The translations under genes and the position numbers were made by a program. Shown in pieces: positions 1-37,769 of a stretch of DNA of 37,769 nt; within the stretch, counting starts at the first letter, position 1; each line of letters opens with the position of its first letter. The notes below the pieces were generated by a model. The model did no database searches. It saw nothing but the letters and a program-made list of their open reading frames with translations, and was not told the origin of the DNA. Source of the stretch: Candidatus Omnitrophota bacterium (GTDB lineage: Bacteria > Omnitrophota > Gorgyraeia > Gygaellales > Profunditerraquicolaceae); assembly GCA_018825985.1 (NCBI GenBank), contig JAHKAP010000005.1:1-37769 (forward strand), written 5' to 3'.

Positions 1-3000
1 ATCCTTTCCGTATTACTGCTATTAAACCGGAATATTATAAATTTAACCCAGCCGTTAACTATTCTTTCCGTGGCAGGAATAGTAGTTACGGCTATTGTTG
101 TTTTTGGAGGCCTCGAGCTCCCAACCTCCGGGGAAATGACCCGCTCGGGGCTTCCAGAACAACAAATTATTAAAGAAAGGGGTGCAAAATGTTTGAACAA
201 CTTATTGAAAGCGTTAGGGGCAACACCGTTTACGGCACCATTCGCGATGGGGAACAAATCAAAACTTATTTCATTAACCAGGGAACTGGCAGGGTGGTTG
301 AATTCTACCAGCACAAATGGATACGGTTTAGCCGGGTCCTCACCGGTCATGACCGCGATAGCATTATCGCCCGCTACATCGCCGCTAAGAATAGCGGAGT
401 TCCGGCTTACAAGGTCAACTAAATCAGCGGTTAGCAGCCCTGCTGCCGCTGATTTAGCTTCCTCTAGTTCAGCGGTAAACAAAAATTGGATTTTTGGTGT
501 AATTTTAGGATTAACTTTGGCAATAATGTCTAAGGCAGGTTTTGCGCTTGATTTAGCCAAATTACCTTACGATCCTGCTATAAATAAGGCTATAGCTTAT
601 ATCCATAATAATGACATTCCGGATATAAATACTATTATTGACAAATTATCCGGCAGAGTAGATATATCAATAGACAATACTATCCCGGCGATAGGCATAA
701 GTTCGAACGGTCCGGAACATGCTTTGTTAAAGGAAATTTTTGGTAACCCATATATTAAAATCAACTTAAAAGGCATTAAGGAAACAGCCAGAGTCCTGGG
801 AAAAGATCCGCAGGAGAGAGAATTATTGGAGGTGGCTTTATTTAGAGCGGCGATAGCCCATGAAATTAAGCATATTAAAGAAAGCGGAATTTTAAAAAGC
901 GAAAACCGTATAATTTCGGCAGTATATGCTCACCTTGGCGAGTATGAACAGGCATTTAGATATGAAGAAGCGGATATATTCAATGAAAGAAAAGATATAA
1001 TCGAACTTATCCTTAGAAAGTCAGGAATTAACCCCGCCATTGTAGGCCGTATTCATAAAAATCAAAATAGCCTGGGCTATAAGTCATCTTACATGGAATA
1101 CGCCATTATGTCCAGGATCGCGGTTATTCTTGAGACTATCTGGGTTTTAGCTGTGCTTGTTTTCTCGGGTTACGGTATATACCGCTTAGTCAGGCGGTTA
1201 TTATCTGGCAAGAAACACAATAGGTCTATGTACAGATATGATTCAAATTGGAGAGATTTGAATAAAAGAAACCGCAGAAGGCGTTCCTCCAGCCCGGTTT
1301 CCCAGGTTGAGATCAAACAAAAATTAACAGAGATATTAGCCGCGTTAAAGATCGGCCAGGAACCAGTAATTGATATTCTTGACGAGGTGATGTTAAGAGG
1401 CGGGAGAGATTATTATCCGGATGGATTACGTAAAGATAGTGTTGCGTATTTAGAGTGGGTATCGCGGGCAGTGAGTTTTCTTGGCGCGGAAAAAAGATTA
1501 GAATCCGTGTTTAACGCGCTTATCAGATCGCTTTATCCGGAGTTTGACCTGGCAAAGATATCCAGCCAGAATAAATATGCCTGCCCCGCTCATGCCCTGA
1601 TCGGATATATATACCTGGCTCTTAAATTTGTACCCGGTAATATTGCCGCCGTTATCTACTATAATAAAGATAAATATTATCATATTGCCGTGGGCGCAAA
1701 ACTTCAAGAAGGCAAAATTTCCATTTTAGATCTAACTACTTTTGCAAAGGAACGAGTTAAACCGTTTGCATTAGTTGAATTGAGCCAGGCAGACAAAGGC
1801 AATCTTCCTTCTAAATCAATTTTCAACTTAACTTCCGCTAAGAAAATTAACGACGCTGATAAAACGGCCGTTGTTTTATTCCAAGGCCCGGCGGTCGAAG
1901 CAATATTAAAATACCTGGAATTTAATATAGGGTCTGCCTCCAGCCCGATGTCTGATATGGGCTATACGGAATTAAAAGAAGCATTTATATCAGACATTCA
2001 AAGATCTCTGGCTAAATATTTTGGAGTTAGTGAATCAGAAATTTCAATACCGAGGGAGCGCGTAGAAATTAAAAATTTCGGAGACGGTATAGAAGAACGG
2101 ATAGTCTGTCAGGTATTTACAAAGAAAAGGCCTTATTTTGTAAAAACCTCCAGGTTAGGAGACCAAGAGGTTCCCGGCTCAGATGCCTTAAGAGCGCTTC
2201 ATTTGCCCAATCCAAACACTAAATTCATAACAGGTTATGTATACAATTATTATTTATATGAATGGATAGGCAATTTGAACCTGAATGAACTTCCAACCGC
2301 CAATCTTAGCTTTAAGAATTTCAGGTATTCATACGCCTGTGAACTTGGCAGAGCAGCGGCAGCCGCGTTTATGATAGGTTTAGCAGATAGAAGCGCTACC
2401 AATCTCGTAGCCAGTTTCGCGTATGGCGATAGAATTACCACAATTGTTAATATTGATTTAACCGCCTCATTCGCGTATTTACGTAAAGAACCGAAGGATG
2501 CGCTCGAAGAACAAACAGCTTTGCTAAAAGGAGCGATCGCTAAAATAATAGAGAACGGCGGCTCCGGCGAATACGCGCATAAATTTAGAGATGATTTCCT
2601 GGAATGTTTCGAGGAGCAGATTTATGAAACTCGGCGTTTATTAGCTTTTAAAAGAAATGACGTTTTAAAGGCGCTATCAGAAGCAACTAACAAGAAAAAT
2701 ACGGCTGATATTATAAAGCGCATTGAATCTGCCAATGAACAGTTAAAATCGTTAACCCAGAAAATATCTGATGGCGTAGCCTCAAGCCTTACATCCTCCA
2801 GCCCGGTTGTGCGGATTCTCGTGGTAGATGATGAATTTAACCAGAGAGAGATACTTAGAATGATATTTGAAGGTAAAGGCTATGAGGTGGAGGAAGCTAA
2901 AACCGCCGAGGAGGCTCTAAATAGATTACAGGAAACAAGGTTTGATTTAATGACAGTAGATAACCGTATGGGCCAGGGCATGCTCGGTACAGAATTGATC

Positions 3001-6000
3001 GAAAGGGTGGTTGTAATCAATAGCTCCTTGCCGATTATCTTTATCAGTGGCACAGAGCGGGTAATCGAGACCGAATTGGTGAAGAATTGTCCTAAGCCGT
3101 ATAAGATTGAAGGGCTTATTCAAATTACGGTAAGCTTATTGAATGCAGCTAAATCTTCCTCCAGCCCGGCAGGCCGTACCAATGGAGCAGTTAAAGATAT
3201 AGCTTCAGGGTTAAGGTCTTATCACTTTAAAGATAATAAAGGGGAAGAATATAAGCTAATTACCGCTGATTGGCCATTGTCAGAAGAAGATATAAGTTTG
3301 GAATTATTTATTCTGGGAGAAAGAGAGCAAGAAATAAACAACGCCATAGGGAAATTGACCCTGAGCCTGCAGCGTAATCTTATCGGCATAGGCGATGTTA
3401 ATATTTACGAACATAGAGGAGAAGGGTTATTTACTCTTATTTTAGAGAGGCTGAAAGAACTGGCGTTGGTGGGCACAGAATTGAAGCTTTACGAGGTAAG
3501 ACACCCCAAGACATTAATCGTAATCAACGGGCTCCTTCCTGACGAATATATAGTTAAGTTGGATGGTTTCTTATTGGAGTTAGTCCGGGAAAATCCGGCA
3601 ATAGAGCTCCCCTTTAGCATCGTAGATGAGCTTCATAACAACATATCGCAGGCTATAGCGTTTGGAGTAATGATTGATACGGAGGAATTACAGCAGGACG
3701 CGCCCCTTATCCGGGCACTATATAAATCCGGATGGGATAAAATTAGGCTTGCCACTGAACGGAGCAAGAACTATCTTGGACGCGAAGGTAACATCGTGGT
3801 GATTAAGGCGGTTAAGTCCTCCAGCCCGGTTAAACTTGGCGCAGCAGTGAACACAAGATTGGATATTTCCTCTAGCGCCGTTTTAAGCGTAATTACCTCC
3901 GCCGAGCCGCAGGGATCTTTTGTGGGCTATGTGTTACCGAAAGGCAGAAAGGCGCTCACAGATTTAATCCTTAAAATGGACGGGTCCCTTGCTCGGCTTG
4001 CCGAGATCGAAGGTATAACTTATCCTCTAAATGAGATTAATACCAAGCTATCAGCTTTATTAAATACCTGGAAAACAATAAATACAATTGCCGAAGATAA
4101 AGATATAGGCGAAGCCTATTTGATAGCCAAGGGACAACTGGAAGAATTAGGATTCAAGGATTTGATTTCAGACGTTTGTACTAAAGATACCAAACTGGAA
4201 ATCATTGCTCGGATCAGAGAAGAGATTAATATATTACGCCAAGAAAAGGGAAAGTTAGAGAATGAGGTTAAGCGGTTCAAGATAGAAGAGCCGATTAACT
4301 CGCAAGAATTGCTTACCTACAACGTCTTCCGCGGTTATTCCAAATGGCTAAAAGGGTATGTTGCTTATTACCACCAGATGCCTTCTCAGCAGGAGCGCAG
4401 AAGAGAAGTACTCAATATGATATCCGAATATTTACAGGAAGAGATATTATCTTACCAGGGCCTTGATGTCCATGGAATTCATAATCTTGATTTTTCTGAA
4501 GAAGAGGCAAAATCTTTGGCAGGAGAGATTCTCACGGACAAAGCCTATGTTGGATTACTGGAATCTTTAGGAATTATAATTGATAATTCCAGAGAAGAAT
4601 TACGCCTGATCATAGAAGGAGTTGTATCTTATTTAGGTTTGAAAGTAGCCTTAATAAAATTAGGGCGGATCCAATATCATTATGGCAAGAGCATCCATCC
4701 TGCGAAGATTAGGGAATTAGAGGTCAAGCTGTCAATGTATCGGGATATGCGCTTTGAGTCCCAAGATGAAGACAGTTTTATAAAAGAGACCGCTCGGTTA
4801 GAAAATGAAATAAACAGTTTAAAGAAGGCGAACCGCATCTATATTGAACAAGCTCGGAAGGGGGAAATTTTCGAACAATCTTACCGGGCCGCCAATAAGA
4901 TAATATGGGAATTATTCCCCGCAGTCCGCGTTATTTCCGGTAAATCATTCAGACTTTCGTTTGCAAACGCAGGCCTGATTATCTTGGGGGTTTCTTTAGC
5001 GTCTTTTGGGATATTCACTGCCATTGCAAACGCTTCGGATTTAACCACACATAATAACTATTCCGTTAATCCGGGGGATACTCTATGGAAGATTTGGGAT
5101 ATGGATAAAAACATTCCCTGGAGTGATTTCAGGGAGATTGTCAAGACGGCAAACAGCCTGGATGATGATTATACTATATATGCCGGTAAGGCAATAAAAT
5201 TACCTAATGATACTCAATATTTCCCTGAAGACGAGAATGGTATTTCTAAAAAAACAGCCGGTTATGAATATCAAAGACTAATTTCCCGCATCTTAGCCTC
5301 TGGCAATGGTAAAAACATGCCCGAAGGCCGCATAAATGCTGGTTTAGCCCAAGCCTTTGCCGATAGATTAAATGCGGTTTACTATGAGGTTCCCGCAGGG
5401 ATTAAAGGAAACGACTATTTTAATAGAATCGTAGAAGACATCCGCAGCAGATATCACGATGCCGTAATAATAGAGGTCCACGCAAATTCTCACCCCGGAG
5501 TAATATTATTTTCCCGAGATGCCAAGGGGAAATTAACGGTAATGAAAGTTGAATCCCAGAAGGTTAAAAAAGTTAATTATAAAGGCGAAGGTATTATTTC
5601 GCATATCTTAGACCATCCCAACATTGCCTTGTTGGAATTTGACCAGGCTAAAGGAATATTAAATTTGACTCCGGAAAGATTTGAAGATTTAATGGCCCAG
5701 GCAGAAAAATTGGCCCGGGTCTATGCCGGAGATTCAAAAGATAGGCAGATAATTATTGTTCCCGGACACGGAGGGGTTAACTATAAGACATCTTATTATA
5801 TAAATGAAAAAGGAGAGAAATCCACCGGTCCAGAAGTTAAATTGGCCGCTAAACAAATAGCAGCTTTAAAGGCCAACGTACGGACGCCGCCAGTTCTTAA
5901 AATAGAACCAGCTTCTAAATACACAAAACAAGTTTCCCGGTTAGAAAAGCAAGTTATGCCGGGCACAGAGGCGCAACTCCAGGCCGACGCCGCCGTAGAG

Positions 6001-9000
6001 AAATATATAAAAGCTGAAACCGAGCGCATGGCCCAAGAAGAAGCTGCCCGCCAGGCCGCAGAGGAAAAGGCGAAACTTGAAGCAAGGCGCATAGCCGCTG
6101 AAAAGGAAGCTCGTCGTCTGGCAAAAGCTTCGAAGAAAGCCGAGGAGGTTCTTGCACAGCCACTGGTTGTCAGAAAGAAGATTGAACCTGCGCAACCGCA
6201 GAAAAAAGAAACTACGGAAGAAGCGCTAAGGCGCGTTTTTAAGGGCCAGAAGCCGGTAGCCAAAGAAAGATTACAGGTTGAGGTGCCGAAGGTAGTAGAG
6301 AAAAAGGCCGCAGAAGAAACAGTTATTCCTCAAACGGCAGCCATAAAGCCCGTTTCTGAACAAAAGCCAGCCAAGCCTGTTGAAGTTGTCCAGGCAGAGG
6401 CCGTTAAGCAGAAAACGCAAGAACAGATTGACCGCGCAAGAGAAGCAGAAATCAGGAGCCGGCCGGACCCGTTTGCTGTACCTGAGAAGTATAAGAGGCC
6501 GGCGGCAGAAGAATATGTTGTGAAGAAAGGGGATAACTTCTGGAAGATATGGAAGAAAGAAGGCTATTCTGCGCGTTTTGTATGGAGCGAGTTTAAGAGT
6601 TTGATTGAAAAGAGTAATCCATCCATTGTAAATATTAACAAGATTTATCCCGGCCAGAAAATATTGCTGCTACCTATATCAGGCCAGAGCGATAAAGAGA
6701 AAAATCAGATTCCTCCCGCCCAAAAGATAGACAAACAAGAAAAAACAGGGAATAAGGCGTATAGGAAAGCGGATATCGTTCCTGATCTTCAAGTAAATAA
6801 GGCGACAATACAGGCCAAAGAAGATAAATCCAAGAAACCCGTTGAGCTTAATCCTCTTGCCGGACCAGCTCCCCCGGTAATTACTCATTCTCTTCAGAAA
6901 GAAAAAGACGATATAAAGCCTGCCTTCTCCGTTCCTACTGCTTTAAGGAATTTTTTCGGATTATTAACTAACTTTTTACATAACGCAAAGTTAGATTTAT
7001 CTAAAAGCAATGATTTTGCAAAGAAAATTACTGAGGCCAAGGAACAATCTGATCCTAAGGAGATCAAACTTAGGAAGCAATTAGATATTCAGGCTAACCT
7101 TATGGCTTTAAGAGAAATATATCGTCAGATCCAGAAGGCCAATGTTGAGTCTAAGGATTGGCTGGAAGAGAAGAAATTAACCGGCGAAAACGCTAAATCC
7201 TATGCCAGCCGCGAAGACGAGAAAACAGCCTATCTGCTCTCATATTTATTAAGCAAGCGCGTTGAACAGGATAAATTACTCGAACAAATGAGAGCTATGG
7301 TAAAGCATAACCCTGATCCGGATATTCTTTCTGTGATTGTGGATTGGGCAAAGAAAGACCGGGATAGCAAAGAAATTTACCTCAGGGAATCAGAGAGCAA
7401 TTTCGCGGCCCTGGAAAGGACTTTAGGGCTGGAAAAACAAAAAGCCCTGCCATTGCAGGAAGAAATCAGGTCATTGACTAATAATATTAAGTATCAGAGA
7501 GCTAAGGTTGAGGATGCCCGGGAAGACTGGAAAGAAGCGGAAGAGTATTTAACCAAAATCGGCGCTTTCCGGGATGATGACTTCACTAGAAAAACCCTGA
7601 ATATGAAGTTAATGCCTTTTGGCTATATAGCTGATGTTATGAGATTTAAAGAATTAATGGAAAAAGAATTAAGAAAAGCCGACAGGTTTAATACTCTGAC
7701 TAAAGAAGATGTTCCTTTAAGATTACGGATCAACGAATTTATGCAGGCCGTGGTTTATCATCATTTGTTATGGTTGGAGAAGGAGAGCGGTAAAGATGTA
7801 AAACAGGCGATGGAGAAGAATCAGCAGTTATTGGAGGAATTCGTCAAGTCAGGGCTTCCTGAAATGCCTAAGACAGAAGAGAAGCTGCCCAGATTAAAAA
7901 TAGGGACATTAGTAGAGGAATTAATCCGGGATTTGAATAATAATATTTCTTTCCAGAAGATCCAGCAGAGATTTAAGGATATATTATCTGATCTCAAATC
8001 ATTCACCACCCAGGAGGATAATTTAGACAAGGTACTAGAAATTATCGCTAATCCCAGAAAGGCATCGGAATCCACTAAGCCCTCAGACGCCCAGGAATTA
8101 AATGCAAGTGTTGATATGCCCGGGTCAGGAGCTGATTTAGCGACAGAACAAAACAGGGCTATTAAGCTTGAGCAAGTTATCGGACTGGGCATAGAACAAA
8201 CTAAGAAACACGGCGGGAAGATAGATGTCCTGAAGAGAAAATTAGAGATTGCCCAGGCAGCTAAAGAACTCGGTTGGAAAGATATATTACCCAATCTTTT
8301 GATTGATATTACTTCGCGCTTTAACCAGCTCGGACATGACGCGACATCACTTTCTTTTAAACCGATATTCTTAATTGACCTGGCAAAGATAAAGTCATCC
8401 GATTTTAACCAGAAAGCTATTGATGAATTGGAGAATCAGGTAAAGATCGCCATAGAGTATTCGACCCGCGCAGAGCTGGTAAAAGCCTACATATCCTTAT
8501 ATAAGACGGAAAAAGAAGAGGCCGCTTATAATAAGTTGATAGGAATTTTAAACACAATTTCCGAAGTAGTTAAAAACAGGGTTAATGAAGGCAGTGCCGT
8601 GGATACGGATTACATTATAATCGAGAAGATGACCGAACAGCTAAAAGCGGCATTAGCGGATTCCCGGAGAATAAATAAGTCCGCCCAGGAGAAAATAAAG
8701 TTTATGACCGGAGATAATAGCAAAGATAATTTTATAACCGGAATCAATTCCCTGGAAGAAATGGACAAAGTTATCAGCTCCATAAGGATTGAAGAATTTA
8801 ACTTGAATTTAATTGCCAGCAACCTGGCTTTAGAGAAACAAAACATAACGACCATTATTAAGAAGTCGGAATTCCTGCCCTGGGTTACTGCCGGAGCGGA
8901 TATCCCCATATTAAGCTCTAATGGTAACAATACCCTTACTTTCGGCTGGGGTATTAATATATACCTATGGAATCCTGAAGGGCTGAATAAGTACCGGACC

Positions 9001-12000
9001 GAAAAATCCGAATTAAGGATTCAACAGGAACAGAGCCGGCAGCTGCGTATGGATTTAGCCCAGGCCCAGAAAGACAAGGAGGGAGAATTAAAGGAAGCCA
9101 GGGAGGTTTTATTTGAGAATGGCCTGGTAGGCAAGAATATAAAAGAAAGCGCCGAATTGTTGAGTGTGAAGATAAATGACTATGCGTATTATTTAGCTTC
9201 GATAAGGGACATAGCCGATGAATTCAATAAGCTAAAGAAATCTATCCTGGTTATGGAGAATAACAGAGAAACAAAATATCTGAATGCCAAAATTGCTTTA
9301 GCTGAATTAGGCAAGGTGACTGCCGCAGATGATGCGTTGTTTAATTCTAAGCATGAATCAGTCACATCGTTGGATAGCCTGGCTAAGGCTATTGAGAAGA
9401 TTATTGAGCGTTCCGGTAAAGTTAAAAATGCCGATGAAGTTATGAATAAGGCAGAATCAACCAGTGAATCCAAAAGCAGCAGTTGGAAGGCCAATCTTAT
9501 TATCGGCCAGGATTTCGTGAATAACCTGGATATAAACGCGTTTACGGATTTAGTCAGCTTAAAGATAACTTATACAGAAAAAGGCCTGGAAAAGAAACAG
9601 GCAGAGATAATCTTGGCCAGGGGTAAGGACGATAAACAGATTGCGATTAATAATCTCCTGGAAGAAATCATGCAGGGCTTTATTACCCTTCAGGTGGTTG
9701 AGGATGTTTATAGCGCTAAAAAACGGGTAGCTGAAGGATTAAGGGAAAAGCGCGATTTCATCAAGAGCCAGTTTAATAAAGGTTTTGAATTAGAATCCAA
9801 ATATAGAGAATCAGAGAGGGACCTGGCTGCTGCTGAAATAGATTTAAGCGATAGCCGGCAACAAATTGAATCTATCAGCACCTATATTAACCGCCTCTTA
9901 GAGCAGAATTACAGCTTGCCTATTACCATCGGTAAGGAATACTCACGGGAAGAGATTATGAAGGAATTCAGCAGGGCTAATTCTTCCTGGCTTTTAGGTT
10001 TTGATTTTGCTCCTTTTGTCGGTTCCATAGAAAAGAAGGTAAAAATTGAGGATATTGAAGTAAAGATAACACAAAGAGGCAAAAGAGAAATAAGCGTGCG
10101 GTTAGCTCCGAATGTTATCAGCCTGGGGATAGAGTTTTTCAGGTTGTTCTATCAGTTGTTCAGGAATCCCAAAGTAGATTTGCTGGATGTGGTTAAGTCT
10201 AAAGAAATATACCTGAATAGCAAAGCTGATTTAGAGGAATTTTTGCGCAATGCCGAGATGGATAGGGTCAGTTTAAAAAGCGAGATCAAACTTAATGCCA
10301 AAGACTTAGAATTAGCTGAATGGATATTAGAGCAACGCAGGAAAGAATGGGATGCCGCGAGTTTTGAAAGAAAAATGGGTGCTCAGGATTCCGGGGTAGA
10401 GTCTCTGGATAAAGAGATTGAATACTGGAGGCAGAAAGAAATCACTGCCTGGAAGAGGTTGATTTATGTGCTGAAAGAGATAGGGGGATTAAAATATGGC
10501 TTAGATAAAGAAGAAGCCAAAGATATCCAGGGCTCGCCTAAAGAAACAATATCCCTGACCCCGGATTTATTAACCAGGGTAATTGATTCGCATTACAGCA
10601 TAAAGAGGGCAGAGAGTTTAATCAAAAATAAAGAAGAAAAGCTGGATATAGCCAAAAAAGCATTTACCCAGATATTAAAGGAAGACCCGGCTTATGCGGT
10701 AAAGTGGCTGGACCATAAGGGGATAACTATCCAGGTCGGCTTAGCCAAGAGAATAGATATCATAAGCCGCGCTGCCAGAATTAAAGAGGCTGAGAGCGAT
10801 TTATTGAAGGCTAGATATGGTTTAGGGGTAGCCAGGATGAAGATCAACCTGGAGTTGTTCGGAGACCTTGTAGCCTACACAATGCTGGAAAAGGAATTAA
10901 AATTATACAATCGTTTGTATGCGGAAAAGACCGAAGAAATATATAAAAAGGCTAAGGAATTAGCAGAATCATTGAAATATTATAACCGTGAAGATTTAAC
11001 CAGGGCTGAAAAAGAGCAAAAAGATATTGTTTATAGGCTCTTTAGCTTAAAAAGACAGTTAAATACCCTGTCTGAGCGCCTAAAGATCAAGCTTAATTTA
11101 CCTGAGAACGCCGAATTTGACACTAATAGCCTGTTAGACTGCGTAAACGGCAATACGATAATCAGCCCTAAGTTTATCGAAGAAATGAAAAATAAGATTA
11201 AATTAAACGATCCCCGCTTAATTGCTGCCCTTGCAGAGATAGAGAACAAGAAGTTAAATTGGGAATTGGAAGTCAAGAAGAGATGGAGCTTTAATATAGG
11301 AGCGGTGTTAACCGTTGATAAGGATTATTTCTTAGGTTTATTTATAAACTGGGAGCTGGATATATTCGGCAAGAAATCTTTACAGGAGAAAATCAAGAAA
11401 CTGGAATGGGAACAGGCTAAGGCTTTATCAGAAGAAGAGTTAAGAAATATCAGCCATGAAATTGAGCAGATGAAAATTAATTTATTTGGGGCAGCCAAGG
11501 CCATAGAGCCCAGTAGAATAGCTTATCAGAAAGCCGGTAAGGAATTGGAAGATAACATTAATTCATTTAATCTGGGCCTGCTTTCCATGGAAGACTTGCT
11601 AAAAACCATGGATGATTTTAGAGATAGCCAGGCTAAATATTTAGATAATGTAGGTATGTATAAAGCTTCCGAAGAAAGGTTAAAACAATACCTGGAATTG
11701 TACGGAATTGATGTGGAAAAATTAGCCGGGGATAATATTATAGGTCAGACAGAAAAGCCCGTTTTAAATAAAGACGCGAATGTTGACGCTGATAAAGCGG
11801 CCTGGATAGACCCAGCCCATGCTTTCCTGCGTAAATTATTGCGAACAACTATTAAATCCCAGGCTGATTTTCATCAGGAACATAGCCTGGAATATAAGAT
11901 TAAATTGATTAATTCAGAGCTTTGGTTAAGGGATATATTAGTCAAAGGTTTAAACAATCTGGATTCTTTGGATGATAATAAGTTGGTATACATAATTAAC

Positions 12001-15000
12001 TATCTGGATAAAGAAAGCCTATTGATAGAAGCCGAAAAAATAGAAGGAATTAATGCGGATGATATCCAGGCACTGAAAGGATTAATTACTCAAGAGAAAG
12101 AACTAATAGGGGCATCTAATGAAATCAGCAAGAATCAGTCAAGGGCTAACGCAATAGAAGAAAGAGAGTCTTTGTCTAAGGAATTGCAGGCAATAACCTC
12201 AAAGCTTGATAGCGTATCCGGCCAGGTGGAAATAAAATGGAGAACCTTAATTAATAATGGCTCAAAGGAAGCATTCAGGAACTTAGTTATTAACCATGCA
12301 CTTGAGGTAGTTAAAGCAGAGGCCGTTCAGCTTGAAAATGCAAGACAGTCTTTGGTTAATGAAAAAAGCTTAAGAGATACCCGGGTTAATAGGCTGGAGC
12401 CGGAATCTTTTATTGCTTATCAAAAATTACCCCTGGAAATCAATGCCAGAGCCAACCGAATCCATAATTTAATCCAGGATATTACCCAGGCCAGGCTTAG
12501 GGTAAAGGTGACCAAGGATAGGGTTTTACATAAACAGCAGCAAAAGGATTTAATTAAAGATATCTGGACAGATAATATTAGCGGTAAACGCCTGACTGTC
12601 CTATTAAAGGAAGAAATAGAAGGCCTGTTCAATGATTTAAAAGATAACCCTCAGGAATTAGAACGGATAAGCGCGGATATATTAAGCAGGTATAAAGTGG
12701 CTCAGCAGGCTGTACAAGCCCCGCCAGCGGAGAATGATGCTTTAAATAGGATGTCGCAGGAAGCCAGGAATAACCATCAGGACCAGGGGTTAATAAACAG
12801 TATCGATAATCTTAAGGACCTGACTTATCAGGCTAAGTATCTACTTGATCAGTTGGATACAATAAGAAAACAAATGAGCCGCACCCTGGTTAGCGATGAT
12901 ATCTTGGGTAAACCGGTCTTAGAGACTAATTTTATTGAAACAGGAAGAAAGCTTTTAGCAATATTCGGTAAACTTGAAATAGGAAGGCGGGAGCTGGTAC
13001 ATAAATTAATGGCCCAGCCGGAATTCTTAAGCAAAATACTTCCGGATTTATTAGGTGACGAGCTGAAAGCTCAGTTAAAAACCCTGGAAAAAGAATTTAC
13101 AGTTAACCAGAGGAAAGAAACAGTATATTTATCTACTTTAATATTAGATAAGCTTACTTCTATAATTAAAGATCCGAGAATGGAAGAAGACATTATAGAA
13201 TTAAAGGCCACTATTTCAGGATTAGAATTAGCAATGGCTAACCTTGAGATAGCTAATAGATTAAAGATGAATGAATCCAAACAGATTTTTTCTTTTGAAA
13301 ACCAGAAGTCTTTGATCCAGTTTATTAATGAGGCTAAAAAAGTTCAGAAAGAAGTCAATAGGTTAGAAACTAAAGTTAAGAGCCTCTGGGATGTTATATT
13401 TAATAGGCTTTCCCATGAAACAAAAGAATATTTGGTAAATTCTATCCGGATAGTCACCGAAGGCGGCGTTGTTATTATTGATAAAACTTCAGGCGATTTA
13501 ATTAAAGCCTTACCGGGATCAAAGGAAGTAATCGGGGCATTGGCTGAAATTTCCAAGCTTACCCTCTCTCAGCAGAGTAAGATAATAGCTAATAACTTCA
13601 ATTATGAAGGCGAATACGATGGAAAAACGGTTACTAAGAAGGTGGAATTCGGCAAAGAAGCTAAAGAATTAAGAAGGGAATTTAAAAATTTAATGCGCTG
13701 GAAGAAACAGATTGAACGGGCCAAGATAGTTCTTGATGACTTAAGAAAAGGCCCGCCATATTCGCATCTGGAATGGATGGTTTCTTTAAGACCGGTAAAA
13801 TACGATAGTAATGGTAATTTAGTGGTTGAGAAGACCAATATTATCACCGGATTTAAGACCATAGACCTATATACCTATGATGAAGACAGGGATGATTATC
13901 TTATTTCCAGAAAAGACCCGGAATATCAGGAGACTACTTATTTTGATTATAGCAAGGCCCGCGAGGGAGAGTGGCCGGTAGCTATAGTAGATGATACCGG
14001 AAAAACCGGAGAAACCCGCACAGTTCAGATAGGTATTTCTGATAGCGGCAAGCCCATTTATAAGACTTTGGATAACGTAGTCAGGATATTTGAAGTAAAA
14101 GAAGTTGGCGATAAGCGCGTAGTAAAAGAAATCGATTTGCGCGGTGCACCGGTAAAAGAAAAGATCTTTGATAGCGAAGACAGAATTATTCAAGAGAAGA
14201 TAGGTGATAAGTTAAGCTTGATTATCCGCGACGTAAATGGCAGAGAGGTAAGGACCGATACCTACGCTTTTAACGAAGTGACCGGCAAGTTTGATATATT
14301 AAGAAAAGTCGGCCAGGTAATCGATGTGGATTATAAATTGAGAAAAGTTTATAAGAAAGTCAAAGATATTAAATCCAGAGGCGATGTATTCGCCAAATTG
14401 ATAAAAGATGGCAAATATACGGAAATGATAGCTGAATTGATAAAAGATGGTAAATATACGGAATTGATAGAGACGTATGATTTAGTGCGCGGAGATATGA
14501 TAGGGAAGATCGGTTATCAGACAGAAACTACCCTGAAATATAACAAAGCAGGAGTAATGATCCATTCTGATATCCAGGTTATAGGTGAGGATAAAACCAT
14601 AATTTCTGGAGATTTAAATCTAACCGGGATTAAGATATACCCGGATGGAAAAGTTATCCATACTTATCAAGAAAAAGACCACAGGACCGGCGCAACCAGG
14701 GAAAAAGTTTATGATCCGCAAAAGTCTTTCGATGAGCCGATAAGTGAAAGTATTACTTACGACGCTTATGAGAATCGTAAAATTGGTCCTGTTACCGCAG
14801 ATACGGATTTTGAACGCAATGTTTACGGTATCATAATCGGCGGTGGGACGAGGATACGGGGAGAAAAGGATTATTTCTTTAGGCCTTCTAATATAAAGAT
14901 GGCCCCGGCCGGCACATTATTAGATAGATCAATATTAGCTGTGGCCGGAATACCCGGGGAGAGGATAGTAATAGCTTACGATTCAAATGATTACTCTAAT

Positions 15001-24000: not shown

Positions 24001-27000
24001 GATTTACGTGATCTGCAGGATGCTTTGAGTAAACTGGATTTTGCCATTAATGATAAGGCTTACATATTAATGAGAAGAGCTTTAAAAAATGCTGAAGATG
24101 CTTATGTTAAATTGACATCATCCCCTATTAAGCCAGGCATGCCGGTTTCCAGCAGTCCTATCCTGATTTCAAATAGGTTTGAAAAATCAGTTTTATCCAG
24201 GAATCACTTTAGCTCTTTAAGAACCACTGGAGCTTTAATAAGGACTGAAGGCATATCCCAGAAAGTATTCAATGAAATAACCGGCATAGAAGCCCGCCGC
24301 GCCCAGGCTCCTCCGGCAATAACATCATCTCCTATCACCATCCCCGTCAAATCCTACATAAATGATGCCTCTTGGCTTGAGGATACCACAAGAATCCTCA
24401 AAAGCCTGGTATCAGAGCATGGCGAGAATATCTTTAAGGTCCTAGATTACCTAAACGAACACGCCCAGGCAGGCGCGCTCACCAGCCTTGAAGGCACTAC
24501 AGCCTATAATGAAATCATAAGAGAATACCCCAGCGAATCCCAGAAGTCCGCTTACAGAGAGTCTGTAAACAGGGGTGAATGGGCTCGGCTTATCCCTGCC
24601 GGAGGAGATGCTACTAGGCTTGGGTTAGGTATTGCTAAGATACTCTTAGATTTGAAAGGCCTCCTTAGTGAAGAATCTGCAACAGACATTGAAAAAGCCA
24701 TTGAAAAAGCATTAAGCAAAGACGAAATCACACCCCGCCAGATTGAAGAGATAAATGCCCTTAAAGCGGAAAGGGATAATTTAAAGAATATTTCTATATT
24801 GGGCCGGATATTGATCCAGGAATCCAGGATGTTCCCCAAAGATATCCTGAAGAAACAAACCTATATCTTCTGCTGTTCTTCAGGCGATGAGAATAATATA
24901 GCTGAAGAGTTAAAGAGATACTATGATAATTCCGAATATGGTTTTGAAAAGGAATGTTTCGTGCTCCAACCTCAAGGAAAGAACCAGATGTTTTCCGTTA
25001 AAGGAAGTGAGCTTTACATCAAAGAAGGCATGTTAAAAGCCGGCGGTAACGGCGTTCCTTTGATTGAGGCTTCTTTAAGAGGCAAAGGCTATATTATCTC
25101 CAAGGACGGTACTTTAGAGAAATTAGAAATATCTTCACTTGAATATGCCAAGTCCAGAGGTGTTAAGTATATACTTCAAGGCACAATCGGAGACCTAAGG
25201 GCCTGGGGGAAGGATCCGCGCAATGACAGGTTCGTCTCCAGGGTGTTTGATAAGCTGGCGAAAGGCGAGATATCCGCAGCAGCCGAATACGTCAAACAGA
25301 ACCCGGATTTGCCTCAAAAAGGCGGGACAGTGCTATATAATCCCCTAACCCGGGAATTAGTCTTTGTTGAAAAGCTTGCTATGGGTAGGCTGCTTCAGAA
25401 GGACGAGCAAGGGAAAGAAAAGATTAACTTCCTGCTCCAGCCTTTGGCTACTTTTAACCACTTATTCACCCTGGATGCTTTCCATGCGATCCGGGATAAT
25501 AATATACCGTTATATATCAGGAGCGAGAAAGATAAAGACGGGAATAACGTGTTTTTTACCGAGCTTGTCGGCGGCGACATCCTGACCATGCTACAGGCAA
25601 TGGGTTATAATATCGTCCATGTTGAACGTCCCATCCAGATAAAAGAACTTAAAGGCACTGCTTCTTTGATACCCACAATCAAAATTGCCCTTGAGCAGGA
25701 TAATGATAGGGGGTCCAGCTCGCCGGTGGGGGCGGTGGTGCGCATGTACAGCCAGGAGAGCCGGGGATATGCTGGCAGTCCGGTGGTTTGGAAAAGGGTC
25801 AAAGGGATTTTGTTTGATATGGACAAGACTCTTTATGACAGCTTCATGCTTCAGAAGGCTTATCGGGACGCCAGAGTTAAGTTTATTGCTTTAAGTAAAG
25901 GCTTATCAGGGACTAGCGCAGAGAAAGAATTTGACCGGGCCAGGGAGATATTATCGCAAGAGACCAAAAGATATGTGCCTAATTCTCAGATTATTCTTGC
26001 CTTGGGGCTTAATTTAGAAGACTGGGAAGAATTTAATATAAAGGAGGTTAATCCCAGGGATTATCTTGTTTCCGATAAGCGTTTGCAGGAGGTCCTATTA
26101 TTTCTTTCTAGGTCATACAAACTGGCTGTGTTGACTAATAACAGTGGAGTTCAAAGTCAGAGGACACTACAGGCTTTGGGAATAAGCGGTTTCTTTAATG
26201 TTAAGCTCAGCCGTTCTGATACCGGCACCTTTAAGCCTAATTTAAAAGCATTCTTAAAAGTTGCGGAGGAATTAGCATTATCTCCGGGGGATATCCTTTC
26301 AATAGGTGACAGGCAAGATATGGATATCTTACCTGCTATCCATATAGGCATGCAGGGTCTTCTCATTCGTTCTTTAGAAGATATCTACTCGCTTCCTAAT
26401 AGAATTGATTCTGATTCCAGTAGTCCGGTGGCTCCAGGTATTAAAGCCGGCCGTTTGAGTTTAGGTATTAGAGCCAGCAATACAAAGTTTGAGTTGGGGC
26501 TGGTTAATGATAATGGCAAGGTGGTAACTAATACTCCTGCGGAATACTGGATGGACTATATCGGAAAGGCCTATCCGGAGACTAACAGGGGGGTTATTGA
26601 TACGCTTAAGGTAAAGATCAGTGAGTTTCTCGAGTCGAGCGGTTTAAGCATCGCAGATGTTAGAAGGATATACGTTGCCTGGGGAGGGCCGGTAGATTAC
26701 GCAGAGGGATTGGTTACTTCTACTTTCCTGCCCGGTTTCAATAGGTATCCTTTAAGGAAAGAGTTAAGGGAGGCTTTTGGTAAGGATAATGTGATATTTG
26801 TTGATCATGATGTTGTTTCTCATCTGATCGGTGAAATGTATTCTAAAAAAGGCGTGTTATATGACCGTAGCGATGGGATGCTGATCAATATTGGTACCGG
26901 AATAGGCGGGGCTGTTTTAAGGGGTGGCAGAGTATTGAGGATATTGCCATATAACTATAAAGGTAAGCAAGGCGAGATTATTTGCGGCCTACAATTAGGC

Positions 27001-30000
27001 CGTTTTATGATTTTTAACGCAGAGGGAAAAGTAGATTTCAGGCCTACAAAAGACGGTGATTTTGCTCTTGTGCAGAAAGACGAAATGCGCGCTACAGAGA
27101 TTTTGGGCGGCCCTGCTTCTGCGCGGCGGGCTGTAGAAAAACAGGTTTTAACTTTATCTGACGATGCTAAGCTGGACATATTGGGGAAGCGGGATAATAT
27201 CATCGTAAGACAAGAGGAGTACATTTTAGACAGGATTAATAGGCTTAGTTCAATGGGGGATGCAAAAGCCGTCCATTTTATTCGGGAAAACGGGCTTTAT
27301 ATCGGGGAATTGCTTAACGTCTCCGTTGAGGCGCTGGGCAGGCCGGAGATTGTGGTTTTAGGCGGGTGGATAGGGGAACATTTTGGAAAAGGGGAGATTG
27401 ATGATCCATTAATTTCTTCGATAGCCGAGGTTTGTGATATTCCAGTAAAGCGCTCTACAGTAGCTATGCGCGAACTTATTGCTGCGGCATATGTAGAAGA
27501 GACAATATGGCGGGTTGCTAGCAGTCCGGTTGTGATCAGGTTAGGGAATGGGGCTTGGTGGGAGAAGCAGGAGAATAGGGTGATTTTCAGGCCTGAGGCA
27601 GAGGTCAAATACGCCAGGCTAAAGCGTTATCTTAAGGGGCTATTTGGCGATAAAGTTCAGGCAGGTTATATTAAAGAAATGGTGCATACTCAAGGGGTGA
27701 TAAGATACCAGCCTTATGTTAAGTCTCCTAAGAGCCTACAAGAAGAAGCTAATAAAGCTATTTACGCTATTTACGGAGATAATTTTATTAGTTCTTCCAG
27801 TTCGCCGGTTGAGCCGGTGAGTTGCGATAAAATCATTGAAGCGTTCAAAACTAATACTCTTTCTTGGCACGAGAATGAAACGCAGTTAATACGCCATAGT
27901 TATAAAATAGCTATGAAGAATTACCTTGATAAGCAATTTTCCGCGGAGGCCACTTATATCCAGCATGCTGCTTCAGTCGCATTGATAGTGGCTTCGCTGG
28001 GAGGGGACGCTTTAGATATAATAATATCATTATTGCATAAAGCGGAAACCCTCGGATTAAAAAGTGAATTAAAGGCTACCGGATTAATAAGCCAGGAGCA
28101 TCATATAGATGTGATTTTTAATACTATTGTAAAATTACAAACTATCAACCTGCCTTATTTAGGCAGGGGGATTAGTTTCCTGGGAGCGAATACTACTTTG
28201 AATAATTATCCGAAGTTTATTACGCAACTGGCTGGGGGGGATGACCGGATATTACTACATATTATAGCCGATTCGATGGAAGTAATTTCTAAAGCAAATA
28301 AAGAAGATATAGATGCTAAAGCCAGGGAATTACGGCATATCTATGCGCCATTTTCCAGGCGCTTAATGCCCGGTATTGACCTATATACGAAAATGTTCGA
28401 TCTCGCCTTTGAATTAAGCCAGCCGGAAGAATATGCCAGGACCAAAGAAAGCATAAATATACATCAGGCAGGCGACTACGATAATCTTGAGCAGACTAAA
28501 GAATTTATTGATCTTTATAATGGATTACTTAAGCGTATCAAAGCCGTGGACCCGGGCGTAATTGAGGAGCATAGAAAAAAAGGGCTATTTTCTATTTTTG
28601 AGAAAACTAAGAGGAAGCCAGAAGATTATCCTGTGCCAGAGGCGATAGAGGACCTTAATGGATTAATGGTAATTACAGAAAAGCCGGATGATGTCAATGG
28701 CGCTATCAGCGCTTATCTCAGCTCTAAGTATATCGGGTTTGACTTGGAATTTAAGCTTAGAAGAGATAAAGGTTACGCGGCAACCCATATTAATTTCTTT
28801 CATGATGCCACCGGTTCATGGGAAATAATGTTGTTCCCCAGTCAGAGAGATTACGAGTTGTATAGATTTGGAATACACGATAAGTTCATGGCTGTCGGGC
28901 GGCTAAGCATAAGCCATTGGCTATATAAATTAATAGAACGTTTAAAATCAGAAAAAATAAAGAATGAACAAATATTTGATACTGAAGAGGTAGCCTTTAA
29001 GGATAGTTTTCCGGTTAACTGCAGGAGGTTTTATGAAAGCCTGGATGATAAAATATATGTTATGGTCGTAGAGTTTACTCGCAAAGGCCCCTGCCTAAGC
29101 GTAATTGAGATGCCGGTAAAGGACAGATCAGCGTATCCGATAGATTTGGCGCTGCATCCTCAGGTAAACAAGAACGTTCATGATTATCGCGGTTTTTCTA
29201 CATTAACGTTTGATCCCTTCGCACCTAAAACATCCCAATTCAAAGTTACAGGTGATGTTTCAGACAACCTGCCTTTAACCAAAGGAATGATAGTAACATT
29301 TAAAAAGGATGTTCAAAGAGGCATATCGATCTGGAGACACAAACCAGCGGCAGAAGATACGCTTTCCTATCTCTATAGTATAGCGAACTTTACGCGCAGT
29401 AAGTTGTTATTAAAGATCGCTATGAGTAAAAAGAATATAAAGGCGTTAGCTGAAGAAGGCAGAAAAAAGATATCTGAAAAGATAAATTTATCCGAAGGAA
29501 ACCTCGAAATACTGGATAAACTTTCAAAATTAGCGGGACTGAATCTGGGGGTGGCAGAGGCTATTGGCGGGCGGGAAAAAGACAAGTCTGAGTTATATGC
29601 CGCAGTCGCTTTAAATTTAATAAGAGTAGAGGAGATAGAGGATTATTTTGCGATCTGCCCGTCAGGCATAAAGATCAAAATTTATACACTGAAAGATATT
29701 TTAGTTAAGATTATTAGTTTGTTAACGCATAAGGGATTTACAATCGGTAATATTCAGAATAAAATTCCCCTGGAAACAGAATGGGGTATAGTCGAACTTG
29801 ACAATTTGCTTTATCCTTGGCATATGACAGATGGCGATATACGGCAAATGTTTGGTTTAATAGAGGAGATAATCGCGATAGAGATATACAGGGGTTCCCC
29901 TGGAAATCCCGCGGCCGAAGGTTCACGCCTACCGGAAGGACAAGGTTCTGTTCCCGGCGTAAGTTCACCTATTGATGCTAATATTTGTCTTTCGCTTACC

Positions 30001-33000
30001 CATATTCCAGGCAGCGTTGGTAGCTTAATCAGGGGCCTTACTTCTCAAATATATAGTTTTGGCTCAAGTCCCATGTATTTATCCGAGTATATCGCCAGCA
30101 GCGGATTAATCCGGGCTGGTCCGAAATCAACAGATAATTTCCTCTTCTACTACAGAGGTTTACAAATATCCAGCTCGCCGTTAAATCTTGGCAAATCCCT
30201 GCCGCTTGCTATTTTTAGGGTTAAAGAAGGTAAAATTATTATTCCTACAGATTATCGTAAGTTATTTGACGGCAAGGCGCTTATAATAGAATCGAATGAT
30301 AAGAAGATACTTTTTCTTTTCGCCTGCGAAACTCATGATTTCCTCATCAACAAGGTAAAAAACCAAGATCACCGAATGGCCCGTATATTGGCGGGAAGAT
30401 TCAAATATATTAAGTTGACAAGTAATAGCGTTACTTTGCCCGCTGAATTTTATTCAGCCAAGCAGGTTATCTGGGTTGAAATAGAAGATAAAGAAATGCC
30501 GCGCTGTTACTCAATGGTCTTGGGTCCCAAGCTGACTTCGGACTCCAACAAGATCCGTGCACCTATTGAGCTCATTGACTCCAGGAGCCAGTCTTTAGTG
30601 TCTAGTTCACCGGTTGAGAAAGAATCCAACGACCCGATAACTAATATAGAACTATTTAAGAAGTTCAAGGAGTTAATGGAAAGGCGGACGCTTCTTTATT
30701 ACAGCAAAGATAAACATGATATCAGAAAAAAGTTGTGGAAGGCCGGGCTCGTTAGAGGAGAAGACCCGCTGTTTTATTTGGATGAACTTATTAAAAATAG
30801 GCCCGGCGAGTTTGACGAATTTAGAGTCCAACTCAATGAAATTGACGCAGAATTAAGAATGGTAGAAAAAGAAGCTGCCAGGGTATTTCTAATTTTATCC
30901 CAACAATTACCTGAACAGGATATTACTAGTTTAAGATGGAATTATTCCAGTTTCTTTAATGAAAAAGGCGGGTTTTCTAGTTATTTAGGAGGAGACATTA
31001 TAGCGGCGAGTTCGCCAATAAATAATATGAATAAAGATTTAGATTTAATTAACCAAGGAGGCACGAAATGCACAATTTACAGAAACTCGAGTTTACTGAG
31101 ATTCAACCTACAGCAGAAGGCATTTTTATCTCGGCAAAGTACCCCAATTGGTTTTCTGGCTATAGTTTCCTTCTCCAGCCCGGAGGCAAAGTCAAAGGAA
31201 GAAGCTCTTCCGGAATCTGGCTGGAGCTTAGCTCGGACTTCAGCTCATCTATTCGAAGTAAATTTCAGTCATTTCTTAAGGACCGTGATTCCGGCGGATA
31301 TGAGCCGGGGCTATAGGAAATTCCGGGGGATGTTTTTTGTTCCCATGGAGAAAGCGGTTTCAAGTTTATCTTTCTTGCCAGTAGGGGCGTTAGTGATTAA
31401 TAGGTTAAGTATTAATAGGCTGCTGCGGGAAGGTGATAACGCTCTTAACCTTCCGTGGCTGGCGGTGAGGGCTTCTCTTTCCGCGGCGGCTGATTATTCA
31501 TTTATTATCCCAGTTGAGACAATTGATATAAGACGGCAGGTAACTTTACCTACTGTTAGCTCGCCAATGGTAACAACCCAGTGTCCCGAACAAATCGGAA
31601 ACAGTTTCCCGCGTTTAGTTAGCCGGCTTAGCGCGACAGAAGTAGATACTTTAAGGATGTTTGTTAAGGCTCTTAACAGGCAGGAAGTTTATAATCAGAT
31701 AATAGCAAAGACAAAAGCCCGGAGGGAGAAGATTATAGCGGAAAGAATTTATTCTATTCGTAAAAAATTAATTGCTCTTTTCGAGGAGAAAGGCGAATCA
31801 GCCGATCTTAAGCTGGGCGAGATCGCTCCCCTTTTAAAAAATGCGCGCTGGCAGGGGTATGATTTAGGCGATGAGAAAAAGATTGACCAGGCTATTGAGC
31901 GGTGGGAACTGAACCTTACAAATAGAGAAATGCGGGACCTGAAATTAGCTGTTCAAAGGATCAATGAAGGTAAATTAGCTTTGGGTAGTCAGATAACTGA
32001 TACCTTGGCTTTAGTACGTAAAAAAATACCTTCAGCCAAGTCCGGCATTGCGGGTATTTTAGAAAAGGTAAGGGATACAGGCCACGACCTAGGTAATCTG
32101 AAAGAATTATCAATGGCGATTAAAAGATCCAAAGCTAAAGAATCTAATCCTTTGTATCCTACTCAGGTTAAAGTATTAGAGGCAGCGCTAAAGCTGGGAC
32201 TGAAAAGATTGAGAGTGCCGTCATATGAAGAGTTGAGGCAGTATTTAAATCTGGATTCAATTGAAACCGTTATGGGTATGATCAGCGATAAAGCCAGAGT
32301 TCATTTAGATATCGGAGTTTCTGTGAGTAAGCATGAAACTACAGTCCGGTGCGTGATAAAGGCCGCAGAGAACCGGCACATTGTATCGAGTGTTCAGGAA
32401 TTAGCGGCATTTAAATCCTTGTTCGCGGTCAAAATATTGCCTTATTATTTAAGGATATTGTTGATCATGCAGGCCTTAGGATTAAGCGCAAAAGAATTTT
32501 ATAATCTGGGAGCGCTTAAAAATGAAAAGCTGGTTGTTTCTTATAATTTTAAGATACGCTCGCTTCTAAAAGCATCGGGTATGACCATTGATGAGGTAGT
32601 AAGGCATTCCTTAAGGATTGAAGAGATCACTGAAAAGGATATCGTAAACGTGGCTATGCTCCTGGATGAAGAATTAATGTTACGAGGGACAAGGTATGCC
32701 CAAGATAAAGGATATTTACCTACATATGAGCTTCATCTAATGATAGATGGCTTTACGGCCGGCCAGAAAGCTGCATTTAAATCTCTATTTAATGTCAGGA
32801 CAACAGATTTTAATACCGACAACATTTATTATAGTACCCTTTTGGATATTATTGGTATTCCTGCTTGGTCACTTTATAAGCTTAGTTTCCCGGAACTGAT
32901 CCGCTTGTGGGGGATTTATGATCGTTATATAGGAATAACTCCTAAGAAAATGGAGATTAATTCAGGCTATAGCCATAAGTTGCAATCTAAAGCCTGCCTA

Positions 33001-36000
33001 TATATATACAGAAAGATAAACAGGAGGGAAGAAATAGCGGCCTTGCCAAAGGCAGAGGAGCTTTTAAAAAGAGTTAATCGCAGGCTTCCGGATAATTCAT
33101 TAAATAAGCGAAAATCCGTTAACCAGGAAGAAAAAGGGATTGGCCGAGGGATTAAAGAAACCGCCGGCAAACTACTCTTGGCTGAAGATTCAAAGATTAC
33201 ACCTAAACCGGTAAAGAAGATCATCGCGCGGCGAACCTTTCCTATGCCTAATCAGTTATCCGGGGTAAGAGATAATAAGACAATAGGGAATGTTATCCGC
33301 GAAATTGAACTGGTTTGTTCTTTAAAAAAACTTAGCCTTGATAAGATTATCGTATCGGCGAATCAACTGGTAGACGACAATTTAAGCGCAGCCGGCGAAA
33401 AAAGAGCAGTTTTGTCGTTAGCCTTGCTGGCAGTAGGGGATGAATCTGTAGATGGCGGATACCAGAATGCCCTGGATATTTTTAATCAGCATTATCCAGG
33501 CAGAAGCTTTTCTTCTTTAAGCCAGGTGGAATTAGATAATGTAAACGTTGAATTAGAAAAGATTGGTTGGGTATGCGTTGAGGATCCATTTTATGTGGAA
33601 ACTGCAAAACCAGGGTTATTTCCATTGGCAAAGTATTATTTGCGCGCAGCGGCTAAAAGATTGGATAAGGAAGCCGACAGCGGATTTTATGAATTTCGTT
33701 GTACTTTAAATAACAGCCGTCTTGTTTCAAGCATAAAAGCAAAGGTAAGACAGATAATAAATCTGTCGAATGGACCGATAAGCTCTTCCAGCCCTATCGC
33801 GGAAACTGTTTCCGAATACTCGCCGCTAACCCCGGAAGTCGTTCTTGAAATGGCTAAAAAGACAAGAGTTCTTTTGAAACAGGAGATGATTGGGGCTGTA
33901 TGCGCTTCTCATGCGGCATGGTTAACGTCTGTTTTGAGGTCGTTAGGAAACAAGGCTTATATGATGGAAAGAAAAGGCGCAGCCGGAGCCCATTACTACG
34001 TTTTATTGGAAGATGAATGGCTTTATGTTGATCCTTATCCGGAAGGTGCCGGTCTTGAGCGCTTGGCAGCTTCTTTTGGGGATACAGGCGCGGTCGTATT
34101 TTCTATCAACGCGCCAGAAGGTAATTTTTATCGAGAAGGTGTTCGCTTAAATGAGAGAGAGTATAATAGTATCCTTTCCTATGTTGTCGCAATCATACAA
34201 GATAATCAACTAAGGAAATTTGGTTTATCCGGCAGTCTAGCGAGTTCATCGTTGGTTAATAAATCGGATAAAATAAAAATTGTCAGAATTGCTTTTCCTA
34301 CACAGTGGCGGTATTCCCTGCAGGCGCTCGAAGATAGATTACTTACGCAAGGTTTTAAGATTATGCCACAGTTTGAGCATTGCTATTTAGACCAGGATAA
34401 GCTACAAAGGATTATATTGGTAGGTGGCCATTTGGATGCTTGCGTTGACTCAGTCTTGTTTTCTACTGCCGTAGTTACAGCTCATTTAGGTTACATAGCG
34501 CGTATTTATCTTCCTATTAATTTGCTTTATATGAGCCGATTCGATTTTAATGGTCAGGCTCAGCTTGCCCGCGAAACAAAGCTGGACTTTATTGTAAAAA
34601 GACAGGCTATTATGATTAATAAAGCTTTAGGAAGTGCGGTTTTTGGCATTTGGCTGGATGATAAACTGCTAGCCGGTATACAGAATGAAAATGTTCCAAT
34701 AATTATTCGTTATTGTAGTGAAACAGATGAATTATTGAAAGCTATACGCTCCAGCTCGCCGGCCGAACCAGCAGAGGTAGTCGTAAAACATTTAATAGAT
34801 AACCTTGTTCTAGATCAAAATATAAGCGGTAGATCCGCTGTTGTATTCCACTCAAAGGCTTGGGAATTTGCAAAACAACTGAATACGTATTCGCAGCGAA
34901 TAAATCAGCCTATACCTGCCAGTCGGTTCGACATCATTAATCATGTAAGTGGCAATATAAAGGGGATACAAGATGGGATCGAATTTGCTGTAGAGATGGG
35001 AGAGATAGTTGCTCCTGAGAGGCGGTTGATTATTCAACCTATCGCGATAAGAGAGCTAGGAAAAGATTTTAATTATAAGGAACTGGCGGATATGTTTTAT
35101 GGCTTAGCTATACAAACAGATGTGCTTAAAAATATATTTATAGTTATTTTTGAAAATAAAAATGATTATGATGGGTTTATCGAATCAGGATCAAAATTTA
35201 TTATTGATCTCGTGTTGGAAAATGGTAGATTTGATTTCTCTAGTGTTGCCAGCTCGCCGGTGGCAGGAAACAGCCGGCATAACTCCATAATAAATCAGTG
35301 GTTAAATCAAGGCAGGGTGGCGTTTTGGGGAACGTCTCAAGAGACCTCTTTTATTAAGTCCAGCAGTCCGGTTGAAAATAATTCACATGGGGCTATTACC
35401 GAAGAAGACGTAATTGAGTTTTTTCTGAACTGGTTCGAAGAGAGCGTTAAGAAACAGAGTAGGGTCATCAGCAGGGAATTCAGGCATACCCAGACCAGCT
35501 ACAGCGGTAACAGCTACGAATTGAAACTGCGCTGCCGGGGGTCTTTGGATAAGACAATGATTATAACCCTGCAGGGGTTAGGCAAGGGTGGCTTTAAGAG
35601 CGTTTGTTACAGGGCAGTGGCTTTTGGGGAGAGGATGTTTATTAAAATATCTACCATAAAGGACTTTGACAAATATACCGATACCTTGGCTAAAGACAGG
35701 ATGCTCTCGCGGGAGTTATCCAAAATAGGGGTTGATAACATTGTTTCTGATGTAAGGATGCTTCTCAACAAGATAGGTGTTGTCCTTCCGGAAAATGTCG
35801 AAACTGCCAAGAGGACGGTGCAGCAGTACCAGGAACTGTTGAAAATAAAAGGGTATTTTGTATTCTGCCTGCCGCTTCTGTCATCGGTCAAGTTCCTGGA
35901 TGAAATAATCAAGAATATCCACGGCCAGGAGGCCTTAGTAATGCTGATTGAGCAGGAGATAGCCGATAATGTAAATGCCTTTGATTCGCCCGGTGATTTA

Positions 36001-37769: not shown

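Follow-up and report, generated by a model that had tools for sequence, protein, structure and literature searches.

A recurrent SSP[VIMLA] motif marks boundaries between gene-sized modules in giant Omnitrophota open reading frames

Results

A giant open reading frame with a recurrent motif

A short motif, SSP followed by V, I, M, L or A, marks where shuffled modules of gene size meet in a giant open reading frame (ORF) of Omnitrophota; this signal is real, has a fixed direction and is conserved at the protein level. The stretch of DNA analysed here (the window, 37,769 nucleotides) is an entire contig (G000:C69) of a 1.77 Mb draft genome, and its nearest named relative is Ca. Omnitrophica bacterium UBA6253. 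One frame without a stop spans the whole contig (1..37767, + strand), encoding 12,589 aa and remaining open at both ends. Giant ORFs of Omnitrophota are already known from the portions of PMC10066038 considered here, and at 37.8 kb the window exceeds the >20 kb by which they are defined there. Gene-sized modules of unrelated function coexist in this single ORF, as in a polyprotein, and the window covers an interior part of a giant Omnitrophota protein made of shuffled modules of this kind. A simple hydropathy scan of ten motif-bearing giants, including the window, detected 254 hydrophobic segments as candidate transmembrane segments.

All 30 in-frame motif coordinates listed in an earlier sequence-only reading of the window translate exactly and lie in the same open frame. 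Strict SSP[VIMLA] accounts for 25 of them, while the other five are looser variants: SSSSAV, SSSAV, SASPI, GSPV and SSSLV, starting at 460, 3868, 20200, 25774 and 34243, respectively. Tandem copies a few residues apart occur occasionally. Composition shuffles of the window (n=2,000) gave a mean of 0.64 and a maximum of 4 strict copies, the other five frames contain 0-3 each, and the reversed motif [VIMLA]PSS is absent from the window. The background of the same genome, taken as ORFs of <2,500 aa from 20 other stretches, yielded 3 motifs per 108,645 aa, two of which belong to the tail of C57, another giant ORF; non-giant genes thus carry about one motif per 100,000 aa, and the density in unrelated proteins is far from equal to that of the window. 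Chance and composition were ruled out as the source of the motif by the shuffles and the same-genome background. A general trait of long bacterial ORFs was also ruled out, because several long ORFs from the same genomes lack the motif, including C61 (3,933 aa within the stretch read) and C6 of G028 (5,697 aa within the stretch read).

The second giant ORF of the genome, C57, contains 26 motifs in 7,253 aa and may encode the C-terminal end of the gene to which the window belongs, the two contigs being unjoined in the draft assembly. Both C57 and the motif-rich giant of genome G028 end in a real stop that is followed within ~500 nt by a PilZ-domain gene (L059:1833-2543 and L043:11789-12448, respectively), and a sugar ABC transporter also lies downstream of the G028 giant. 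The conserved PilZ neighbour suggests c-di-GMP control. A stop-free frame of 70,450 aa was observed in G032:C2 (L192-L202), but it contains masked N that make its length uncertain and was therefore left out of the motif argument.

Distribution of the motif among Omnitrophota giants

Ranking of k-mers placed the motif at the top in most of the motif-bearing Omnitrophota giants examined. SSP is the leading 3-mer in the window, C57, G011, G028 (57,099 aa, 123 SSP copies) and G004, as well as in G008, G058, G026, G039 and G082, and is second to SPL in G048. Other mixtures of Ser, Pro and Thr are not enriched in the same giants. The motif is absent or at chance level in the giants of G096, G120, G029, G063 and G080; the motif-poor ORF of G096 (35,009 aa) belongs to the same genus as the motif-rich G028, and k-mer ranking revealed no alternative boundary motif in it. 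The motif is therefore lineage-variable and is no requirement for a giant ORF.

Motifs coincide with module boundaries

The claim that the motif marks module boundaries was borne out by comparison with Pfam domains and between giants. None of 137 motifs falls inside a Pfam domain, against 12.3 expected (P=2e-6; 48,315 scanned residues), so that equal motif density within folded domains does not apply. Across all giants, 24 of 260 ends of homologous blocks lie <=5 aa from a motif, compared with a null mean of 7.8 and a maximum of 20 in 1,000 randomizations. Only 18 motifs lie inside homologous blocks where 124 were expected, a deficit that derives partly from the long motif-free core. A junction signal that is shared between modules and absent inside them, as these giants have, is a further trait of polyproteins.

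The window illustrates this arrangement (all features on the + strand, from in-frame translation and motif scan; all motifs strict except GSPV). Following SSPV (337..348) and SSPA (433..444), the first module (445..1284) has a signal-peptide-like N-terminus (NKNWIFGVILGLTLAIMSKAGFA) and then an HEIKH segment that resembles a metallopeptidase by eye. It is closed by SSSPV (1285..1299), after which come a 213-aa module (1300..1938) with a Cys/His/Asp pattern by eye and 63-64% identity to a G011 module, motif to motif, and SSPM (1939..1950). SSSPV (2794..2808) opens a receiver-domain module (2809..3153; PF00072, aa 939-1020) that is 48-50% identical to its G011 counterpart, followed by SSSSPA (3154..3171) and SSSPV (3817..3831). 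Residues 432-650, 927-1058 and 1038-1279 of the window protein match G011, and these matches end at motifs, or within 14 aa of them, on both sides; the motifs at 1285, 1939 and 3817 are block ends common to G011 and that at 2794 is a common block start. Three window modules thus match G011 from motif to motif, in a different order.

A long core without a strict motif (3832..24117; none between aa 1278 and 8039) contains LysM, many hydrophobic helices and a region whose glucan-synthase-like reading comes from weak homology to other giants. The LysM domain lies at 5059-5205, and a second LysM-like repeat was seen by eye near aa 2172 of the window protein. In the giant ORF G026:C177 (L145:9991-19590, - strand), residues 2055-2520 match 1,3-beta-glucan synthase (PF02364, E=6e-64), and this stretch has homologues in G004 and G058.

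Beyond the core, SSPI (24118..24129), SSSPI (24148..24162) and SSPI (24325..24336) precede a module that is nucleotidyltransferase-like by eye (24337..25713), with family relatives found only in long open frames. SSSPV (25714..25728) and the looser GSPV (25774..25785), directly before the domain, introduce a HAD-family hydrolase module (25786..26415; Pfam and alignment to solved HAD chains); SSSPV (26416..26430) introduces a ROK-family sugar kinase-like module (26431..27519; Pfam). SSPV (27520..27531) and SSSSSPV (27790..27810), the latter a block start common to G028, are followed by a RelA/SpoT-like module with HD_4 (27811..29961), homologous to a G028 module that also starts at a motif. A series of motifs then follows: SSPI (29962..29973), SSPM (30064..30075), SSSPL (30169..30183), SSSPV (30601..30615), SSPI (31009..31020), SSPM (31558..31569), SSSSPI (33781..33798), SSSPA (34750..34764), SSPV (35251..35262) and SSSPV (35359..35373). 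The last of these opens a protein-kinase-like module (35374..36861; Pfam match below cut-off), and SSPV (36862..36873) opens a NUDIX hydrolase module (36874..37767; Pfam) that runs to the contig end.

Of the domains proposed to start a few residues after a motif, the receiver begins 2 aa, ROK 10 aa and HAD 26 aa beyond the closest strict copy (HAD lies ~7 aa beyond the looser GSPV). An MraZ-like assignment has no Pfam support in the window at E<=0.01. Alignment of the HAD module to solved HAD chains begins at their residue 2, and residue 30 of the RelA/SpoT-like module falls opposite residue 27 of a solved RelA chain. Since both alignments start near the chain ends, the motif sits at what would be the native N-terminus, and the modules correspond to whole proteins.

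Signal-like segments downstream of motifs

Hydrophobic signal or transmembrane segments occur within <=60 aa after the motif in 33 of 236 modules and within the last 60 aa in 7 (P=4e-5); ordinary ORFs show the same N-terminal bias (29% vs 11%). Five RRxF[LI]-type signals were found in the giants, each of them 11-21 aa downstream of a motif, while residues within 25 aa downstream of a motif make up 3.4% of the set in which this was computed. Four of these five signals carry a lipobox-like Cys, with ISGC canonical, LGGC near-canonical and SVGC and LWGC approximate (canonical lipobox taken as [LVI][ASTVI][GAS]C after a hydrophobic segment), and each of the seven genomes checked has LspA. A Met directly before RR is kept in two of the five. 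TatC was not found above the cut-off in any of seven draft genomes, with a control positive in 11 of 14, and the twin-arginine-like signals may therefore be Sec-type or relics of captured genes. Functional Tat export of the modules that follow motifs, at first counted as strong evidence, was withdrawn because no TatC was found in the genomes checked.

A glycosidase-like module of G026 (fold by eye) starts after SSPV, has its own lipoprotein-like signal and is closed by SSPI. Its counterpart in G082, with 62% identity, is embedded, with the closest motif >1,500 aa away, and the residues examined immediately upstream of it contain no signal. Export-signal-like segments just downstream of motifs favour the presence of new N-termini at these sites.

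Motif profile, codon usage and alternative roles

The profile around the proline, [S/A/V/T]-[S/A/G]-S-P-[V/L/I/M/A], is tight from -3 to +1, and S, P, N, E, T and Q are slightly over-represented on either side. At the residue after P, V is enriched 5.9-fold, M, L and I 2.5-3.0-fold and A 1.7-fold, figures obtained with an anchor that itself demands one of V/I/M/L/A; for unanchored S-P, V is the next residue with 3.8-fold enrichment. Such an ordered profile resembles a recognition site more than it does a plain linker of Ser and Pro.

The same profile bears on whether the motif is a standard linker, an exposed flexible or kinked hinge that spaces gene-sized modules in one uncut chain. The position of motifs between domains and never in the scanned Pfam domains, and the composition of the flanks, agree with a linker, as does the presence of similar modules in giants without the motif, which implies that a chain lacking it is tolerated. 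However, a plain linker needs neither the fixed order nor the aliphatic residue after P, and it does not predict the absence of the reversed motif from the window or the lack of enrichment of other Ser/Pro/Thr mixes. It also leaves unexplained the modules' own export signals after motifs and the signal-less embedded G082 module, and we regard it as less likely than processing, though as its most serious competitor.

Short linear motifs often have Ser-Pro at their core, and the motif might instead be a docking or modification site that is bound, glycosylated or phosphorylated and positions or protects the inter-module regions of an uncut chain. The tight profile with weak flanks and the occasional tandem copies fit such a role, but no partner or modifying enzyme was identified and the signal-like N-termini after motifs would go unexplained, making it improbable.

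The 218 sites use 70 distinct codon words for SSP, with serines that mix TCN and AGY, and the most common motif 12-mer in C57 occurs once. A mild bias is superimposed: TCC encodes Ser-3 at 58% of motifs vs 16%, and CCG encodes Pro at 54% vs 32%, which may reflect copying of junctions. Since TCN and AGY are not single-step neighbours and the amino acids are fixed, selection on the motif most likely acts on the protein, and the protein-level conservation claimed earlier from varied codons is upheld. A DNA-level repeat was ruled out by this codon diversity, leaving the mild bias. In the G028 giant, a near-identical post-motif element, SSP[VL]..[IT]VGATVV, recurs at aa 44590, 46742, 49598 and 57010, and a second element (GALVGTRFEQQVARLMGVGSLSETLRGID) recurs at aa 14812 and 21806; these are recently copied junction pieces.

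The motif could also be a seam of gene capture, the translated scar or recombination joint of cassette insertion without a function in the protein. This would account for modules that break at motifs when shuffled, for the TCC and CCG bias and for the start Met that two captured genes seem to retain, but it is hard to reconcile with the many codon words encoding fixed amino acids or with a commonest C57 12-mer found once, and we judge it marginally less probable than docking. Internal translation starts, by which modules would be made separately through re-initiation near the motif (GTG/ATG/TTG after SSP), are very improbable: start codons might underlie the V, M and L that follow P, and an ATG stands just before RR in two signal-bearing modules, but Shine-Dalgarno-like words do not rise above background in the bins closest to the motif (0.11-0.16 vs 0.157 per 20 nt), ATG is under-represented across the first 10 codons counted from the motif, post-P codons are mixed with Ala frequent, and two signal-bearing modules lack any ATG/GTG/TTG in the interval from motif to RR.

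Discussion

Proposed processing of the giant at the motif

Proteolytic processing of the giant as a polyprotein at the boundary motif is favoured over an uncleaved linker, although we hold it tentatively, at somewhat less than an even chance. Cutting at or beside S-P-[V/I/L/M/A], either by a cellular protease or by one that the giant contains as a module, would make the giant a polyprotein, and every released module would gain its own N-terminus. The receiver, HAD, ROK, RelA/SpoT-like and NUDIX enzymes would remain in the cytosol, modules with a signal-peptide-like N-terminus would be exported through Sec, with lipoprotein-like ones processed through LspA, and the motif-free glucan-synthase-like core would remain a single chain. 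Cytosolic modules and modules with export signals lie side by side in one chain, which is easiest to understand if they are separated. We infer all three elements of this scheme: that the chain is cut, at which bond, and by what protease.

Several observations weigh against processing. Giants of the same family without the motif (G096, G120, G029, G063 and G080) imply that cutting at this site would not be a general feature. Whole genes that were fused and never cut would likewise leave signal-like N-termini after motifs, and the twin-arginine-like signals may be captured-gene relics given that TatC was not found in seven genomes. Neither a neo-N-terminus nor a processing protease was identified. 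Peptidase-like modules of relatives belong to S8 and Mx1, neither tied to the motif, and the candidates in the window (the HEIKH segment and the Cys/His/Asp module) were recognized by eye only. Assigning the protease through the fold of the module at 1300-1938 was dropped, as its model is of low confidence (pLDDT 53.5) and has no PDB match at E<=0.001. The sequence-only reading had proposed either a cleavage site or a standard linker; boundary marking and protein-level conservation stand, and between the two readings cleavage is preferred tentatively.

Relation to known systems

The giant protein of 'Ca. Velamenicoccus archaeovorus' (39,678 aa; from the portions of PMC10066038 considered) resembles the window in belonging to the same phylum and in having a very long stop-free ORF and many transmembrane helices. 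In those portions, each Omnitrophota giant is regarded as one protein that serves adhesion or attacks polysaccharides, with no reference to a processing site or to a motif between modules. A literature search yielded no report of the motif or of a bacterial polyprotein; the giant-gene papers Kizina 2022 and the West-Roberts 2023 preprint lay outside its scope.

In viral polyproteins of the picornavirus/flavivirus type, too, products that fold independently are encoded by a single long ORF and set apart by a short site that recurs, and the chain contains protease-like modules, whereas the window is bacterial and far longer, its module content and order are variable, and its cleavage and protease are putative. 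The fbcH cytochrome b/c1 precursor shows that more than one protein can derive from one bacterial ORF through separation after translation. Precursors of this type give few products and are processed by signal peptidase, whereas the modules of the giants number in the dozens and share a motif that does not resemble a signal peptidase site. Ser/Pro/Thr-rich linkers of multidomain enzymes also lie between folded domains, but the motif of the giants has a fixed order of 4-5 residues with an aliphatic residue after Pro.

Omnitrophota giant ORFs rank among the longest predicted proteins, and their folding, sorting and function as single chains are in question. The boundary signal provides a rule for parsing the giants into modules, which makes domain prediction tractable piecewise, and it renders the single-protein question directly testable at S-P-V. 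The giants may be true bacterial polyproteins, in which dozens of unrelated enzymes and envelope proteins are translated as a chain tens of thousands of residues long that is cut at one kind of short site, SSP[VIMLA], between copies of which gene cassettes were shuffled in evolution, a wider proposal to which we give slightly less credence than to processing itself. If the chain is cut, this would be a mode of gene expression for which we know of no bacterial counterpart at this scale.
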